A stretch of 23,846 nt of DNA. It comes from a virus. Shown in pieces: positions 1 through 11,501 of this stretch. A program made the position numbers and the translations under genes. The notes under the pieces were generated by a model. The model did not search any database. It saw nothing but the letters and a program-made list of their open reading frames with translations, and had not been told where the DNA came from. Location of the stretch: positions 1 to 23,846 of IMG/VR virus record IMGVR_UViG_3300036861_000563. The stretch is one strand, 5' to 3'. The stretch's first letter is position 1; each line of letters begins with the position of its first letter.

Positions 1-1068
1 CTAGATTTCAGTAAGCCTTCGACCACACCAAGGATTGCTGAAGCTCTAGCTCACATAAAGCCCCCTCAATGGCTCGTACGAGATATATGGACGAGGGGAA
101 GTTGCGGCTTTTTAGCAGGTCAGCCTAAGTCATGGAAGTCATGGATAGGTTTAGATATGGCTCTCTCGCTGTCGACGGGCACAGACTTCCTTGGAACCTT
201 TCCAGTAGTCCAGCCTGGCCCAGTACTTTACATTCAAGAAGAGGATCCTGCCCAACGGCTCAAGGATCGCTTCGACAAGATGTGGCTGTCCAAAGCCGAC
301 TGGAATGTGGGCATTGAAGATGGTGTTCCAGTTGTAATACCAGCAACAGACTTACCAAGAGATCCCGACATAGGTATTCACATAAAGTCTGGTATAGTGC
401 TATCAGACGAAGTCTGGATGGAGTGGCTTCACGACATAATCGCCGAAGGCCTCGACGGAGTACCCTATCAGGCTGTCATTCTCGATCCCCTCATGTATAT
501 GTTAGGAGATGTGGATCAGGACAAAGCAGGGGCTATGATGTCTAAGGTTTTCAGGCCCTTAAAGACGTTAGCTAACGAATTTGACATTGCCGTTATGGTA
601 GTCCACCACATGAGAAAGGCTAGCAAGGAATCAGGCTCCCTCCGAGGCGGCCAGTTAATGCTAGGCTCTGTGGCCAATCATGCTTGGACAGAAGACAGTC
701 TCTACATCTCACGACGCCTAAACGAGCTAGTAGTAGAAGTAGAGTCTAAGACAGCCCCGGGTGGAACGTTCAAGATCAGCGGGGTAAGAAACAGATCATG
801 GACGCCCATTGTCTATGACATAGATCTAGGAACCTCAGACGTAGAGCCAGACGACGTAATAGTACGCCAGTCACAACACACGCCATCCAAAAACACAGAC
901 ATAGTAAAAGCTCTCACCGTCTTGGGCCCGTCCACACCTCAACAAATAGCCGACCATCTAAGCGTCTCACGGCAAACTATCTACAAAGCTCTCCGTCGCC
1001 CAGCAACCGCCGGCACCGTAATAAAGATTAACGGCTCCTGGCACCTAAACAACAACGGTCACCAATAA
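1..1068 (+). CDS. RepA-like AAA ATPase / DNA helicase, 5' end outside window
   Basis: The reading frame is open from base 1, so the gene starts upstream; 355 residues are visible. A Walker A-like loop reads GQPKSWKS (bases 118-141), with Trp where the classical loop has Gly, a form I recall from RepA/AAA_25-type phage and plasmid ATPases. A Walker B-like strand VILDP lies near 475-490, followed by VVHHMRK (about 598-617) and a conserved-looking RGGQLMLGS stretch. The C-terminal 50 residues (about 900-1060) form a helix-turn-helix or winged-helix segment (TPQQIADHL, then SVSRQTIYKAL). Family knowledge suggests a hexameric RecA-fold ATPase acting in replication, such as a helicase or loader, with a DNA-binding tail. 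The first Met in the window (157) lies after the Walker A loop, so starting there would delete the nucleotide-binding site. The last 200 bases are notably C-rich, unlike the following genes. Confidence 0.8.
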   Translation, partial: LDFSKPSTTPRIAEALAHIKPPQWLVRDIWTRGSCGFLAGQPKSWKSWIGLDMALSLSTGTDFLGTFPVVQPGPVLYIQEEDPAQRLKDRFDKMWLSKADWNVGIEDGVPVVIPATDLPRDPDIGIHIKSGIVLSDEVWMEWLHDIIAEGLDGVPYQAVILDPLMYMLGDVDQDKAGAMMSKVFRPLKTLANEFDIAVMVVHHMRKASKESGSLRGGQLMLGSVANHAWTEDSLYISRRLNELVVEVESKTAPGGTFKISGVRNRSWTPIVYDIDLGTSDVEPDDVIVRQSQHTPSKNTDIVKALTVLGPSTPQQIADHLSVSRQTIYKALRRPATAGTVIKINGSWHLNNNGHQ

Positions 1069-4502: not shown

Positions 4503-4937
4503 ATGAAGGAAATTAGTCTTGAAGGGCTAATAGTTGGGTTTACGGGATCACAGAAAGGTATGACTAAACCTCAACAGAAAACTGTTAAGAGATTTCTTAA
4601 ACAAAAACCTTCAGAAGCTCACCATGGGCTTTGTATAGGATCAGATGAAGAGTTTCATGCTTTAGCCCGGCCTCGAGTTGACGTTATATGCGTCCATCCG
4701 TGCAACATTGAGGAGAAACGGGCAAAGATAGACCATTGGGATATGACTCAACCCGTTAAGCCGCCGTTGGTCAGGAATAAGTTTATGGCTTCACAGGTTG
4801 AGGTTCTTCTTGCAACTCCCAAAGAAGACTATGAAATTCGTAGAAGTGGAACTTGGGCTACGATCCGTGCTGCTCTGAAACTTTGGAAAACGGTTATCAT
4901 TGTGTTGTGCCGGGCTCGTTCTTTCACCGTAAAGTAG
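4503..4937 (+). CDS. SLOG-superfamily (DprA/LOG-like) protein
   Basis: This 144-residue protein has the marks of the SLOG Rossmann-like fold: a first strand and loop VGFTGSQKGMTKPQ (residues about 11-24), HHGLCIGSDEEFHALA (about 40-55), a strand with VICVHPC, then VEVLLATPKE and the signature RRSGTWATIRAA (about 117-128), the GGTW-type phosphate-contacting loop. SLOG domains bind nucleotides or nucleotide-derived ligands; members include DprA, LOG cytokinin-activating enzymes and sensors in defence systems. Its own promoter (4469-4497) and three upstream repeats suggest separate regulation. In a phage accessory region it might act in recombination, nucleotide-signal scavenging or counter-defence, but the sequence does not decide. 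The C-terminal LCRARSFTVK looks unstructured. Confidence 0.7.
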   Translation: MKEISLEGLIVGFTGSQKGMTKPQQKTVKRFLKQKPSEAHHGLCIGSDEEFHALARPRVDVICVHPCNIEEKRAKIDHWDMTQPVKPPLVRNKFMASQVEVLLATPKEDYEIRRSGTWATIRAALKLWKTVIIVLCRARSFTVK

Positions 4938-4942
4938 GTAGG

Positions 4943-4968
4943 AAAAAAAAAGACGTCCTGACGACGTC
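4943..4968 (-). terminator. Leftward intrinsic terminator
   Basis: Read on the minus strand, GACGTC, loop GTCAG and GACGTC form a 6-bp stem followed by nine T (the A-run at 4943-4951). This is a textbook layout for stopping leftward transcription, although all confident genes point right. It may end an antisense RNA or protect the upstream gene. On the + strand no T-run follows the stem. Confidence 0.5.
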
Positions 4969-5294
4969 ATCAGAGCTGCTAAGCTTCAGAGCTCAGCTCG
5001 TCTCGTGGGTGCGATCTCTCCAGACGCTCTGTAACGTACTGTGACTTAAGGTCATGTAATGAGGTAGCATGAGATACACTGAAACCTACATAGAACGTAA
5101 CGAGATCCAATGAAAATTGTCGTGGTCTCCATTGAGACTTGCCGTGACGAGATGGTATACACTGATTCTACGATGGTTTGTTGCGAAACGTATGGAAACG
5201 TGGGAAAGGGTCGATATCATGAGGCGCCTGCGCGTATACCATATTGGCGGCACGATGTCAAGGAAAAAAACTTCAAAAAAGTTTAAAATATGCC
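4969..5294. other. Non-coding regulatory stretch
   Basis: No convincing gene is found here: the open frames on both strands lack ribosome sites and family features. It holds ATGGTATAC (5152-5160) and its inverse GTATACCAT (5234-5242), an ACGTAC motif (5033-5038), and A-tracts (5264-5287) that resemble an UP element for the promoter at 5295. GTCAAGG (5257-5263) is the exact inverse of CCTTGAC at 5293-5299. Confidence 0.5.
5234..5262 (-). promoter_or_regulatory. Possible leftward promoter
   Basis: On the minus strand a perfect TTGACA (5262-5257) is followed, after 17 bases, by TATACG (5239-5234). The last -10 base is G rather than the near-invariant T, so strength is doubtful. With the leftward terminator at 4968-4943 it would delimit an RNA of roughly 280 bases without a good ORF. 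Confidence 0.3.
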
Positions 5295-5323
5295 TTGACG
5301 CCCTCGGCGCATCATGGTATAGT
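5295..5323 (+). promoter_or_regulatory. Strong sigmaA-type promoter of the GC-rich gene
   Basis: TTGACG (5295-5300), a 17-base spacer and TATAGT (5318-5323). A-rich tracts at about -40 to -65 resemble an UP element. Transcription should begin near 5330, giving a leader of about 45 bases that contains a hairpin and a ribosome site ahead of ATG 5374. Confidence 0.8.
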
Positions 5324-5338
5324 TGCATTATCAACCGA

Positions 5339-5355
5339 TGCCCCCGCAAGGGGCA
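5339..5355 (+). promoter_or_regulatory. 5'-leader hairpin
   Basis: TGCCCC, loop CGCAA, GGGGCA forms a very stable short stem between the start of transcription and the ribosome site AAGGAGA (5361-5367). There is no T-run, so it is more likely an mRNA stabiliser or translation element than a terminator. Its core CCCCGCAAGGGG recurs in the terminator at 5673-5684. Confidence 0.6.
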
Positions 5356-5373
5356 ACGCAAAGGAGAATGATG

Positions 5374-5655
5374 ATGGCAACCACCCTCACGCCCAAGGAA
5401 CTCGCGAAGCAACTCGACACCGACCCGAAGCGCGCCCGCAAGTTCCTTCGCTCGAAGGATTCGGGTCTCGCCGCCGAGGCGCCCGGCAAGGGCGGTCGAT
5501 GGGCGATCGACGCTCGCAAGGTCAAGGGGTTGAAGTCGAAGTTCGTCAAGTGGGACGCCGCCGATCGCGCCGCCGCCGAGGCTGCCCGAAACGCTCGCAA
5601 CGCCGCCGTCACGACGCCCGACGAGCCCGAGGCCCCCGAGACGACCGAGGACTGA
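5374..5655 (+). CDS. Small helix-turn-helix-like protein in a GC-rich 'moron'
   Basis: Three consecutive ATGs (5368, 5371, 5374) are available; 5374 gives the best distance (7 bases) from AGGAG. The 93-residue product begins MATTLTPKELAKQLDTDPKR with RARKFLRS next, which reads as a helix-turn-helix. GKGGRWAIDARKVKGLKSKF follows, then an Ala/Arg-rich helix and an acidic tail. I recall similar small proteins in other actinophages without assigned function; DNA binding is likely. By hand count bases 5521-5640 are about 70% GC, far above the flanking genes, and codons end mainly in C or G, as in a high-GC host. It has its own promoter and terminator, so it is an independently expressed insertion. 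Some morons are anti-defence or lysogenic-conversion genes; nothing here shows which. Confidence 0.75.
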   Translation: MATTLTPKELAKQLDTDPKRARKFLRSKDSGLAAEAPGKGGRWAIDARKVKGLKSKFVKWDAADRAAAEAARNARNAAVTTPDEPEAPETTED

Positions 5656-5667
5656 CCGAAACGCGAA

Positions 5668-5692
5668 GGGATCCCCGCAAGGGGGTCTCTTT
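5668..5692 (+). terminator. Intrinsic terminator with GCAA tetraloop
   Basis: GGGATCCCC (5668-5676), loop GCAA, GGGGGTCTC (5681-5689) forms a 9-bp stem with two G-U pairs, followed by a short T-run (TTT). It lies 12 bases after the stop of the GC-rich gene and closes that transcription unit. Confidence 0.75.
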
Positions 5693-5802
5693 GCTGTGTA
5701 AACATATCAGATGTACTGGAACGTACCGTCCGAGAGCAGAAACAGACGAAACTTATCCAGACGTACATAGCATCCATTGAGGTATCTTTAACACAAACTG
5801 AC

Positions 5803-5842
5803 GCTCGGTGGGTACGTGCTTATCGTACCATAATGAGCGAGC
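5803..5842. repeat. Operator-like inverted repeat upstream of a promoter
   Basis: GCTCG (5803-5807) and GGTACG (5811-5816) are matched in reverse by CGTACC (5824-5829) and CGAGC (5838-5842). It ends about 20 bases ahead of the -35 box at 5863. ACGTAC/GTAC motifs also occur at about 5719-5724 and 5761-5766. A regulator-binding site is the simplest reading. Confidence 0.5.
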
Positions 5843-5862
5843 GGAGTCAAGGAAAAAAAACG

Positions 5863-5891
5863 TTGACAGGGCATTGAGGTCATGGTATAAT
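5863..5891 (+). promoter_or_regulatory. Perfect consensus promoter, leaderless output
   Basis: TTGACA (5863-5868), 17-base spacer, TATAAT (5886-5891): both hexamers are exact consensus. Eight A (5853-5860) lie just upstream as an UP element. The A of ATG 5898 is the seventh base after the -10, the expected transcription start, so the mRNA would begin at the start codon. Confidence 0.9.
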
Positions 5892-5897
5892 GTATAT

Positions 5898-6152
5898 ATG
5901 ACCGATTACCTCTCCCGCCGATTCGCCACCGGTCCTGAAATTCTCGGGGATCGATACTCCGCCGCCTGTGACTTTGCAACAAACTTCATGGATGATGCCG
6001 TCGACAAAGTTATTACCGGTCTCTGCCGGGACTTCAACTTGACGACGATTCAAGCCCATATCGTATGGGATGAGATCTTTGCCTGGCTGACCGATCCTGA
6101 CCGCATCGCTGACGAAGCCGATGACCGTGCAATCCGAAAGGGTAAGGCATGA
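5898..6152 (+). CDS. Hypothetical 84-aa protein on a leaderless mRNA
   Basis: The frame is open from 5808, but ATG 5898 is the proper start because the consensus promoter at 5863-5891 lies inside the longer version and no ribosome site precedes 5898. The product starts MTDYLSRRFATGPEILGDRY. It is mildly acidic and probably helical (DAVDKVITGLCRDFNL, AHIVWDEIFAWLTDPDRIAD). No TM segment or known motif is seen. Leaderless mRNAs are common in Actinobacteria and are translated straight after infection. That, with the strong promoter, suggests an early accessory protein acting on the host. Function unknown. Confidence 0.7.
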   Translation: MTDYLSRRFATGPEILGDRYSAACDFATNFMDDAVDKVITGLCRDFNLTTIQAHIVWDEIFAWLTDPDRIADEADDRAIRKGKA

Positions 6153-7698: not shown

Positions 7699-9213
7699 AT
7701 GCAAAACATTCGCTACAGAGGTAAGAGTGATATACGGCGGATAACTGACGCTCAATGGTTGAGTGTGGGCATAACTGCTCCTACTATTGAGTGGACAAAG
7801 GCTAATGGCTATGAGGTAATTATTGATGACCTGGCTGCGGCTTATTGTTTAGCTCAGGGTGAGTTTGAGGCTGGTGACCCTAACCAGAAATTTGGGAATA
7901 TTCTTAGGTCACCTCACGTTGAGATTTCTCCTGGCTTTGGTCAGGTGTGGGACGCTGCTAAGGCGACGGCGGGCTCTAGCCTTATCCACGCTCACGTTAT
8001 TGGTGATAGTATGGCTTGTAGTGGTTCTGGTGTAACCCCTAACACGATAGATAATAGGCGAAATCTTAACATTACGGGGTTACTTGAGACGCAGATTAAG
8101 ACGAAGTATGGCAATGGTGGTACAGGTTATTTGAGCCATGAGTTTACGACAGCTACTGGTACATGGACAGCTAGGATGGGGTTCGCTGGCACTGAAATAA
8201 CGGCTAGTGCTGCTGCTAGTTTACAGTGGACTAATATCTTTGGCACGACTGTTAGGATCTATTTTAAGAACCAGCAGTCACCGGTGGGGTCGTTTAGATG
8301 GCGAATTGATGGGGGTGCCTGGTTGCCGGTTACACCGCCGGTGGATACTGTGCCACCGCTGGGGCTTACACAATTTGAGCCAGGCTATGCGCAGGTAGAA
8401 GGTTTGGCGGATACTGCTCATACGATAGATATTGAGTGGGTGAGTGGTACGGTAGCTATTAATGGAATACTGGGCTTTCGGGCTGCTGGTATAGTTTTTA
8501 GTCGGATTGGTCAATCTGGTCGGGCGCTTTGTGACTATGATCTGGCTATTCGTGGTAGGATTGTCTGTGGGACTACTAATACTAGCACTAATGTTACGTC
8601 AGCTGCGCACGGGGCTTTTAACAGCAGCATGATTAATATGTACTTGCAGGGAGCCGGCATAGCTGCTGACGCGAAAATAACTGCGGTCGCTGCTGATGGC
8701 TCTAGTTGTACTATAGATAAGGCAGCTACTGCTACGGCTACTGTAACATTGAAGCTTTGTTATAAGCCTACGTTGGGATCTCTCATTCCTAGGCTGGTGG
8801 TTGATCCCACGTTTAGTGTGGGGCTGTATAGAGCACACTTGCTGATATTTATGATAGGCATTAATGACTATGATGAGGGTACTACCACACTAGATTATAA
8901 GGCTTCTATGGGCCGGTGGATGAAGACGTACATGAGTGGTACTGCTACAAATTATAGTCCAGATGTTGTTGTTATTACGGAGCATGGAGCGGATTGGTTT
9001 GATCTAGAGTACAAGTATGCGGCTACTGCTTGTGCTAATCGTGAGATGGCCCTTGGTGTGGGCGGAGCACACTATGATGTCTGGGGCATGGGTCATAGAT
9101 CTCACCAGTATTGGCAAGAGGAGCCACACAACTACTTTACTGATAGTGCTCATCTAAACAATGCGGGCTATGCGTATGTAGCAACACAGGTTGGTGAGCT
9201 TTTGTGCCGTTAG
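7699..9213 (+). CDS. SGNH/GDSL esterase-type virion (minor tail) protein
   Basis: ATG 7699 follows AGGAGA. The first 20 residues (IRYRGKSDIRRITDAQW) match a module seen at the start of actinophage virion proteins and again in the gene at 19300. The SGNH hydrolase core is clear: block I HVIGDSMACSGSG with Ser104 as nucleophile, GIND at residues 387-390 (block III oxyanion Asn), and DSAHLN with Asp482 and His485 (block V). A beta-rich insert separates blocks I and III. Such enzymes remove acetyl or acyl groups from carbohydrates or lipids. On a virion this would modify host surface glycans or envelope during adsorption. The gene lies upstream of packaging genes, away from the tail genes. Length 504 aa, apparently complete. 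Confidence 0.8.
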   Translation: MQNIRYRGKSDIRRITDAQWLSVGITAPTIEWTKANGYEVIIDDLAAAYCLAQGEFEAGDPNQKFGNILRSPHVEISPGFGQVWDAAKATAGSSLIHAHVIGDSMACSGSGVTPNTIDNRRNLNITGLLETQIKTKYGNGGTGYLSHEFTTATGTWTARMGFAGTEITASAAASLQWTNIFGTTVRIYFKNQQSPVGSFRWRIDGGAWLPVTPPVDTVPPLGLTQFEPGYAQVEGLADTAHTIDIEWVSGTVAINGILGFRAAGIVFSRIGQSGRALCDYDLAIRGRIVCGTTNTSTNVTSAAHGAFNSSMINMYLQGAGIAADAKITAVAADGSSCTIDKAATATATVTLKLCYKPTLGSLIPRLVVDPTFSVGLYRAHLLIFMIGINDYDEGTTTLDYKASMGRWMKTYMSGTATNYSPDVVVITEHGADWFDLEYKYAATACANREMALGVGGAHYDVWGMGHRSHQYWQEEPHNYFTDSAHLNNAGYAYVATQVGELLCR

Positions 9214-10863: not shown

Positions 10864-11212
10864 AGATGATATCTGTCGTACATGTGATCGTAGTCGTGCT
10901 TGGCATGATGAAAACAGACCTCAGCATCCGTTCAGAGATAAGGGCGATATTGCCCCGATGGGCATTACTGAGAAGGAACGGAGAAAGGCTTTACCTCGAA
11001 AAACTCAGGTGAATACTCATGAGTGGCCCGGTGATCCTATCTTGCGTATTGCTCTGATGTCCAAAGGTATTTTGACGATGGCCGACATTGTTGCGGCTGA
11101 ACAACAACTGCGAGAGGCAGCTTACAATGGCGGGGTCATACAAATCCAGCCCTCTAACTCTGGCAGCAGCTCTGGATCAGATATACCATCTAGGTCAGGA
11201 GAAAGCTCCTGA
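10856..11212 (+). CDS. Hypothetical protein with CxxC motif (118 aa)
   Basis: The start overlaps the previous gene by 8 bases. The N-terminus has CRTCDRSRAWHDENRPQHPF, a pattern I recall from small actinophage proteins near terminase genes; the CxxC and histidines could bind a metal, although only one Cys pair is visible. The middle helical part (ILTMADIVAAEQQLREAAYN) is followed by a low-complexity Ser/Gly tail that overlaps the next gene by 86 bases. Confidence 0.65.
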   Translation: MSEDDICRTCDRSRAWHDENRPQHPFRDKGDIAPMGITEKERRKALPRKTQVNTHEWPGDPILRIALMSKGILTMADIVAAEQQLREAAYNGGVIQIQPSNSGSSSGSDIPSRSGESS

Positions 11213-11501
11213 GGAAATATGTGGCTTACTGGTTGAGGGTAATAGCCTTGACTGGACGCTGTATGTTTTAGATAACATACATCCTATGCCCATGATGGCT
11301 TATGGGCTAGAGCCAGAGGATGTAGGTTCTTGCGTAACTAAAGAGGAGTTCTTTGACTGCGTAACTATCTGGCATACACATCCGTCGGGCATGATCGGAC
11401 CTAGCAAAGGAGATCTGGAGAATTTAGTAGAGGGTGTTAGGTACTTAGTTATGACCATTCCTACGAAGGAGGTGGTGAAGTATGAGCGAGTTCGGTGGTG
11501 A
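11127..11501 (+). CDS. JAMM/MPN-domain metalloprotease-like protein
   Basis: I choose ATG 11127 over an upstream TTG (11088), which has no ribosome site and would lengthen the overlap. The 124-residue product carries the complete JAMM metal site: Glu29 or Glu30 in PEEICGLL and the motif HTHPSGMIGPSKGD, with His83, His85 and Asp96 in exact HxHx10D spacing. JAMM enzymes are zinc isopeptidases or peptidases. Phage members include the tail protein K family, and free-standing forms occur beside terminases in actinophages. All catalytic residues are present, so activity is likely; possible roles are structural-protein processing or removal of host modifiers. Substrate unknown. Confidence 0.75.
   Translation: MAGSYKSSPLTLAAALDQIYHLGQEKAPEEICGLLVEGNSLDWTLYVLDNIHPMPMMAYGLEPEDVGSCVTKEEFFDCVTIWHTHPSGMIGPSKGDLENLVEGVRYLVMTIPTKEVVKYERVRW

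Follow-up and report, generated by a model that had tools for sequence, protein, structure and literature searches.

The window analysed here, a 23,846-base viral contig from IMG/VR with a GC content of 47%, carries genes that include a helicase, a terminase, a portal, a probable scaffold and a capsid gene, and no DNA-level match to any isolate phage was found for it. Within 400 bases of this window (5295-5694) we located the compact unit described in the original prediction, with its TTGACG-17-TATAGT promoter, leader hairpin, ribosome site and 93-amino acid helix-turn-helix (HTH) gene (Table 1). The kinship of the HTH protein with proteins of Curtobacterium and Microbacterium phages, together with an apparently leaderless gene next to the cassette, would fit an actinobacterial host.

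Table 1. Positions of the cassette and of neighbouring features in the window.
Feature	Position	Strand	Basis and remarks
Primase/helicase, C-terminal part	157..1068	+	AAA_25, E 4e-16; upstream reference point for synteny
Divergent leftward promoter: -35 TTGACA (5261-5256), 17-bp spacer, -10 TATACG (5238-5233)	5233..5261	-	
A/T-rich inverted repeat AAACTT-caaaa-AAGTTT between the divergent -35 boxes	5268..5284	.	
Sigma-70-type promoter GCC-TTGACG-17-TATAGT, TG before the -10	5295..5323	+	Promoter scan; family conservation
Leader hairpin GCCCCC-GCAA-GGGGC	5340..5354	+	About 10 nt from predicted RNA start; leader folding z -2.05
Ribosome-binding site AAAGGAG	5360..5366	+	Read from sequence; similar AGGAG/AAGGA in most homologs
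HTH gene CDS, 93 aa	5374..5655	+	ATG 5374; second in-frame ATG at 5371
Post-stop hairpin GCGAAGGGATCCCC-GCAA-GGGGGTCTCTTTGC then TGTGT, 14 bp	5663..5694	+	Window z -4.0
Neighbouring unit, not part of the cassette: perfect promoter TTGACA-17-TATAAT and apparently leaderless 84-aa gene	5863..6152	+	ATG 5898

Three scans of 2.9 million viral contigs for the protein family yielded 23 loci, and most of the homologs from about 25 other loci, comprising IMG/VR contigs, Curtobacterium phage Shrew and Microbacterium phages Huwbert and Triscuit, have the same anatomy. As the loci were found by protein alone, the anatomy of their flanks constitutes independent evidence. The recurring plan begins with a promoter carrying CCTTG in the -35 region, a TGGTATAAT-like -10 and a start region of ATATCGA or TTATCAA, and continues with a leader hairpin (GGGGG-CCCCC, AUCGAUC-GAUCGA and others), a Shine-Dalgarno sequence, the GC-rich gene and a strong hairpin, the last usually followed by GTGTGT or GTTTG. 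Over 11 cassettes the CCTT of the -35 region and the TG before the -10 are invariant columns, and the more divergent family members mostly retain both the hairpins and the high GC at third codon positions (GC3). An alignment that included distant members (A2) was dropped, as it offered no scannable block.

In the window, the cassette promoter scores 10/12 and ranks second in a 4-kb stretch that holds 11 promoter-like sites where chance predicts 4.6, with RNA predicted to start near 5330. Folding relative to dinucleotide shuffles was stronger than in controls both for the 19 leaders (mean z -1.98, against -0.20 in random segments, p 1e-8) and for the 19 post-stop segments (mean z -3.0 against -0.22, p 2e-8); some subjectivity attaches to both statistics, as the promoter scanner missed or misplaced four cassettes (L035, L037, L041, L043) whose leaders were cut by a hand-made start motif. 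The leader structure recurs across the family in differing sequences, and several base pairs of the post-stop hairpin are kept through changes on both sides; a clear hairpin within 65 bases of the stop was absent from L017, L036, L038 and L039. The intrinsic terminator of the original prediction stands as a hairpin but lacks a clean U-run, its T residues sitting instead in the 3' arm, and for this reason the consensus terminator scan does not list it. We regard it as a probable terminator and 3' stabiliser. The leader and post-stop hairpins of the window have 12 bases in common, CCCCGCAAGGGG (5342-5353 and 5673-5684), and an Rfam search of 4900-6000 gave no match.

Upstream, the cassette faces away from a second, leftward promoter. 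In most homologous cassettes GTCAAGG, the reverse complement of the -35 CCTTGAC, aligns at this position, and Shrew has a 12/12 leftward site there; the window's own copy is missing from the promoter-scan list because its -10 is without the final T. Pooled over 25 cassettes, inverted repeats in the interval that separates the two divergent promoters exceed expectation (sum 141 against 110, sd 4.6, matched by 0/100 mononucleotide shuffles), although the repeat is weak in the window alone, where 10/100 shuffles were as good. The arms vary in sequence from phage to phage, most being A/T-rich and a few (L040, L043, L044) C/G-rich. We have labelled these repeats neither a common operator nor a terminator, as they are enriched as a set but differ in sequence, and no common operator was found among the divergent promoter regions of the family cassettes. 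Two leftward promoters of the window, at 5822-5850 (CCTTGACT-17-TACGAT) and 5233-5261 (CCTTGACA-17-TATACG), stand back to back with two rightward promoters, and both lie inside a 34-nt repeat. As no convincing leftward gene follows them in the window, they may yield a non-coding or antisense RNA. In Shrew, the annotated plus-strand gene 1 (L016 697-1011) faces a perfect leftward promoter (12/12), and a minus-strand open reading frame looks the likelier gene in that region.

The original prediction placed the GC content of the HTH gene far from that of its neighbours and likened its codons to those of a high-GC actinobacterium, and the computed values bear out both statements. The gene has a GC content of 69.2%, a GC3 of 0.860 and a GC of 0.84 at fourfold sites, whereas the 32 other window genes have a mean GC3 of 0.435 (sd 0.074), placing the HTH gene at z 5.7. 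Next come the scaffold gene and the 84-amino acid neighbour, both at 0.60, and the major capsid gene at 0.55. The HTH gene ranks first of 29 for GC3 in the window locus and holds the top GC3 value in 23 of the 25 loci (2.2 expected). Over 15 phages the order is HTH gene at or above major capsid, and major capsid above terminase, wherever all three were measured, with the exception of G021. In Shrew and Huwbert the HTH gene leads all measured genes, narrowly ahead of the capsid gene, and in the low-GC phage G014 the three values are 0.84, 0.52 and 0.35. Huwbert gp9 (0.64) and one copy in G004 (0.65) are without strong bias. Codon usage of the window gene correlates with that of its family (r 0.77) rather than with the rest of the window (r 0.11). 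The contrast thus recurs across the family but is sharper in the window phage than in most. Given the GC3 ranking, the family-like codons and published phage precedents, it is best read as translational selection for host-like codons. In the low-GC mycobacteriophage Patience, highly expressed genes lie closer to host codon usage (PMC5559632), and in mycobacteriophages codons ending in C or G are typical of genes presumed to be highly expressed, the expression itself having been deduced from codon bias (PMC2817497).

Residues 3-63 of the protein span a predicted winged-helix domain that matches PHROG 21603 (E 1.2e-11), a profile matched by 14 of 14 members of family alignment A6 (best 4.8e-37). 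Its entry gives no function. The proteins named 'MerR-like HTH DNA binding protein' in Huwbert and Triscuit and gp2 of Shrew belong to this same family and are about 50-55% identical to the window protein over the domain; the Shrew and Huwbert cassettes also reproduce the promoter, leader hairpin, ribosome site and high-GC gene of the window. The Pfam HTH_17 match is weak (E 0.011, 16.4 bits against a cut-off of 27) and falls short of the curated MerR-superfamily profile, and searches of NCBIfam and PADLOC returned no supported family for the protein. An AlphaFold model (pLDDT 82) predicts an HTH followed by a long C-terminal helix, with PDB fold matches to RacA, BldC, CadR, pSK1 Par and Xis proteins, none significant singly. 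The best of these, the RacA DNA-binding domain (5i44; E 0.05, probability 1.0), comes from a protein that, unlike ours, has other domains and a chromosome-anchoring role. BldC, a MerR-like regulator of Streptomyces, resembles the predicted window protein in being a small MerR-type winged helix without a coiled coil or effector domain, and its family forms asymmetric head-to-tail oligomers on DNA direct repeats (PMC5859096). It is nonetheless only a weak structural match (6ama, E 0.28) without sequence membership, and the long C-terminal helix and acidic tail set the window protein apart from it. TrmBL2 and forkhead proteins, returned by a PDB sequence search at E 0.04 and above, were set aside.

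Across 14 members the stretches R22-K23-F24-L25-R26 and P37-G38-K39-G40, the latter with R42-W43, are invariant. By analogy, the RKFLR helix and PGKGxRW wing would be the recognition helix and wing that contact DNA. The window protein pairs a basic domain (+9) with an acidic tail (-5); of 19 members, 18 have a domain charge between +2 and +9, and tail charge ranges from -1 to -19. The tail varies in length and sequence, and conservation falls on the basic DNA-contact surface. A basic domain with invariant contact motifs favours DNA binding as the conserved function. The same phages carry longer relatives of about 215-290 amino acids with N-terminal and acidic extensions. Among these are paralogs of about 235-240 amino acids in L014, L032 (2114-2809) and L033 (2066-2773); by eye, the L014 paralog joins a SAP- or Rho-N-like N-terminus and acidic stretches to the same HTH domain.

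While the independent expression of the cassette is supported by its own promoter and hairpins, its description as recently acquired cargo did not hold. A helicase is present in all 19 cassette-bearing records searched, whereas terminase and capsid genes were each found in 14 of 19, the other records being for the most part fragments. About 2-6 kb separate the helicase from the HTH gene downstream of it, with both on one strand, in the window phage (4.3 kb), in Shrew and in G001, G009, G010, G012, G017, G019, G021, G023, G024, G026, G027 and G029; in the Huwbert group the distance is similar but the strand opposite, and G004 has two copies, both located elsewhere. The flanks, whose constancy in relatives had been named as an argument against recent arrival, are therefore largely the same at this scale, although the immediate neighbours differ. 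Among 18 terminase relatives picked without regard to the HTH gene, 15 have a member of the family, several only in its longer form, and HTH and terminase distances are correlated (Mantel r 0.69, p 2e-4), indicating co-divergence. The gene thus shows one hallmark of a moron, its own promoter and terminator (the terminator by hairpin only), without the other, sporadic presence. The best reading is that the HTH cassette is a lineage-core gene rather than a recently acquired moron.

An unlikely alternative is that the whole cassette recently passed from a phage of higher GC content to the 47%-GC window phage, where it may have displaced an older copy. Actinophages are mosaic, the GC3 contrast is extreme in the window phage, and G021, which of all the cassette-bearing phages comes closest to the window in terminase and capsid (TerL 64%, MCP 58%), carries an HTH gene with a GC3 of only 0.55 and an apparently leaderless start (TATGATGCATGCATG). 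The G021 copy is our main doubt. It fits a GC3 that follows expression signals but also leaves room for replacement of an older copy by a GC-rich cassette in the window's own lineage. Against recent transfer stand the shared neighbourhood downstream of the helicase, the co-divergence with terminase, the high GC3 in other low-GC phages such as G014, and the absence of homologs of at least 60% identity beyond two near-identical contigs. Possession of a promoter does not by itself mark a GC island as a recent import, and in phages far below the GC content of their host, selection on the codons of a single strongly expressed gene can mimic foreign DNA.

We therefore favour, with a probability of roughly 0.6, a lineage-core cassette of lytic actinobacteriophages built for high monocistronic expression of an abundant DNA-binding protein. 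In this model, the strong host-type promoter would produce a short monocistronic mRNA protected by the 5' hairpin near its start and by the 3' hairpin after the stop codon, the latter also terminating transcription; 5' stem-loops and 3' terminator hairpins are known to stabilise mRNAs (PMC7509114). The product, predicted to be a small MerR/BldC/Xis-type winged-helix protein with conserved putative DNA-contact motifs and a variable acidic tail, would then be translated heavily thanks to a good ribosome site and to codons optimal for the host (GCC, CTC, CGC, AAG, ACC). Such a protein would most likely be abundant early in infection, where it could coat DNA or tune promoters, perhaps in its own divergent promoter region. 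Several observations sit uneasily with the lineage-core cassette: the leaderless, ordinary-GC3 copy in G021, the weak bias of Huwbert gp9 and one G004 copy, the failure to find a common operator, and the GC3 of the window capsid gene, which lies so far below that of the HTH gene that translational selection would have to act almost solely on the latter.

The position of the gene in isolate genomes bears on timing. Huwbert, Shrew and Triscuit all have it close to the left terminus, Huwbert and Shrew with a second annotated copy near the right end, and in all three isolates it falls within the long terminal repeats, which in Triscuit are direct repeats of 3,795 bp (PMC7302621). In the window the gene is internal on a 24-kb fragment. 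From the location near genome ends we infer early entry and early expression. A bolder version of the lineage-core reading, which we put forward tentatively, makes the product one of the most abundant early proteins, a virus-specific chromatin-like protein or master regulator that reads or remodels the CC-extended promoters of its own lineage and that, in terminal-repeat phages, is delivered with the first DNA to enter.

Rather unlikely, in our judgement, is a dedicated master transcription regulator that binds a motif common to phage promoters, for instance the CC-extended -35 box CCTTGAC, and so switches early operons. In the window and the cassette-bearing phages L046, L047 and L185-L204, 33 of 86 strong promoter-like sites have CC directly before TTGAC, compared with 11-17% of all TTGAC sites, a suggestive signal that is confounded with phylogeny, host and GC content and may merely reflect what suits the host sigma factor. 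Strong promoters are also scarce in terminase relatives without a short HTH copy, where 360 kb contain 10, compared with the 86 found in about 520 kb of cassette-bearing phages, and the recognition helix hardly changes across the family, in contrast to the inverted repeats. We consider it improbable that the product is a DNA mimic or anti-defence protein. The acidic tail and the small, stand-alone gene would suit such a role, as would its place in the terminal repeats of three isolates, since the terminal repeats of phages such as SPO1 are a place where host-takeover genes occur; conservation nevertheless falls on the basic surface and not on the variable tail, and PADLOC offered no supported family. 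A recombination directionality factor (excisionase) is extremely unlikely, for although the winged-helix fold class is shared and mycobacteriophage Pukovnik Xis and Tn916 Xis are among the PDB matches, the family occurs in lytic phages (Triscuit is listed as such; PMC7302621), no partner integrase was seen among the genes annotated in Shrew and Huwbert outside 50-52 kb, and two pattern scans of 84,980 prokaryote species genomes, which could miss distant relatives, found none in bacterial genomes or prophages.

Under the favoured reading of an abundant, lineage-core DNA-binding protein, this small, conserved and apparently virus-specific gene is an obvious one to test in lytic Microbacterium and Curtobacterium phages. 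Likewise, hairpins that differ in sequence at the same two positions of the mRNA offer a ready-made series for testing how mRNAs are stabilised in Actinobacteria.

Several further features of the window deserve mention. Between 1700 and 4200 there is a strong strand asymmetry, with GC skew up to +0.64 and positive AT skew over most of the interval, the coding strand being purine-rich across several unknown open reading frames. A 504-amino acid protein (7699-9213) has a C-terminal GDSL-type hydrolase domain, a weak match below the Pfam cut-off (E 4.7e-5), and a Prok-JAB (JAMM-type) domain (11088-11501, E 1.7e-8) lies directly upstream of the terminase gene. The 84-amino acid neighbour of the cassette starts at TATAATgtatatATG (5886-5900), with its -10 about 6 bases before the ATG, and apparently leaderless genes with the same spacing occur at about 4835-4851 in L002 and about 1674-1688 in L016.
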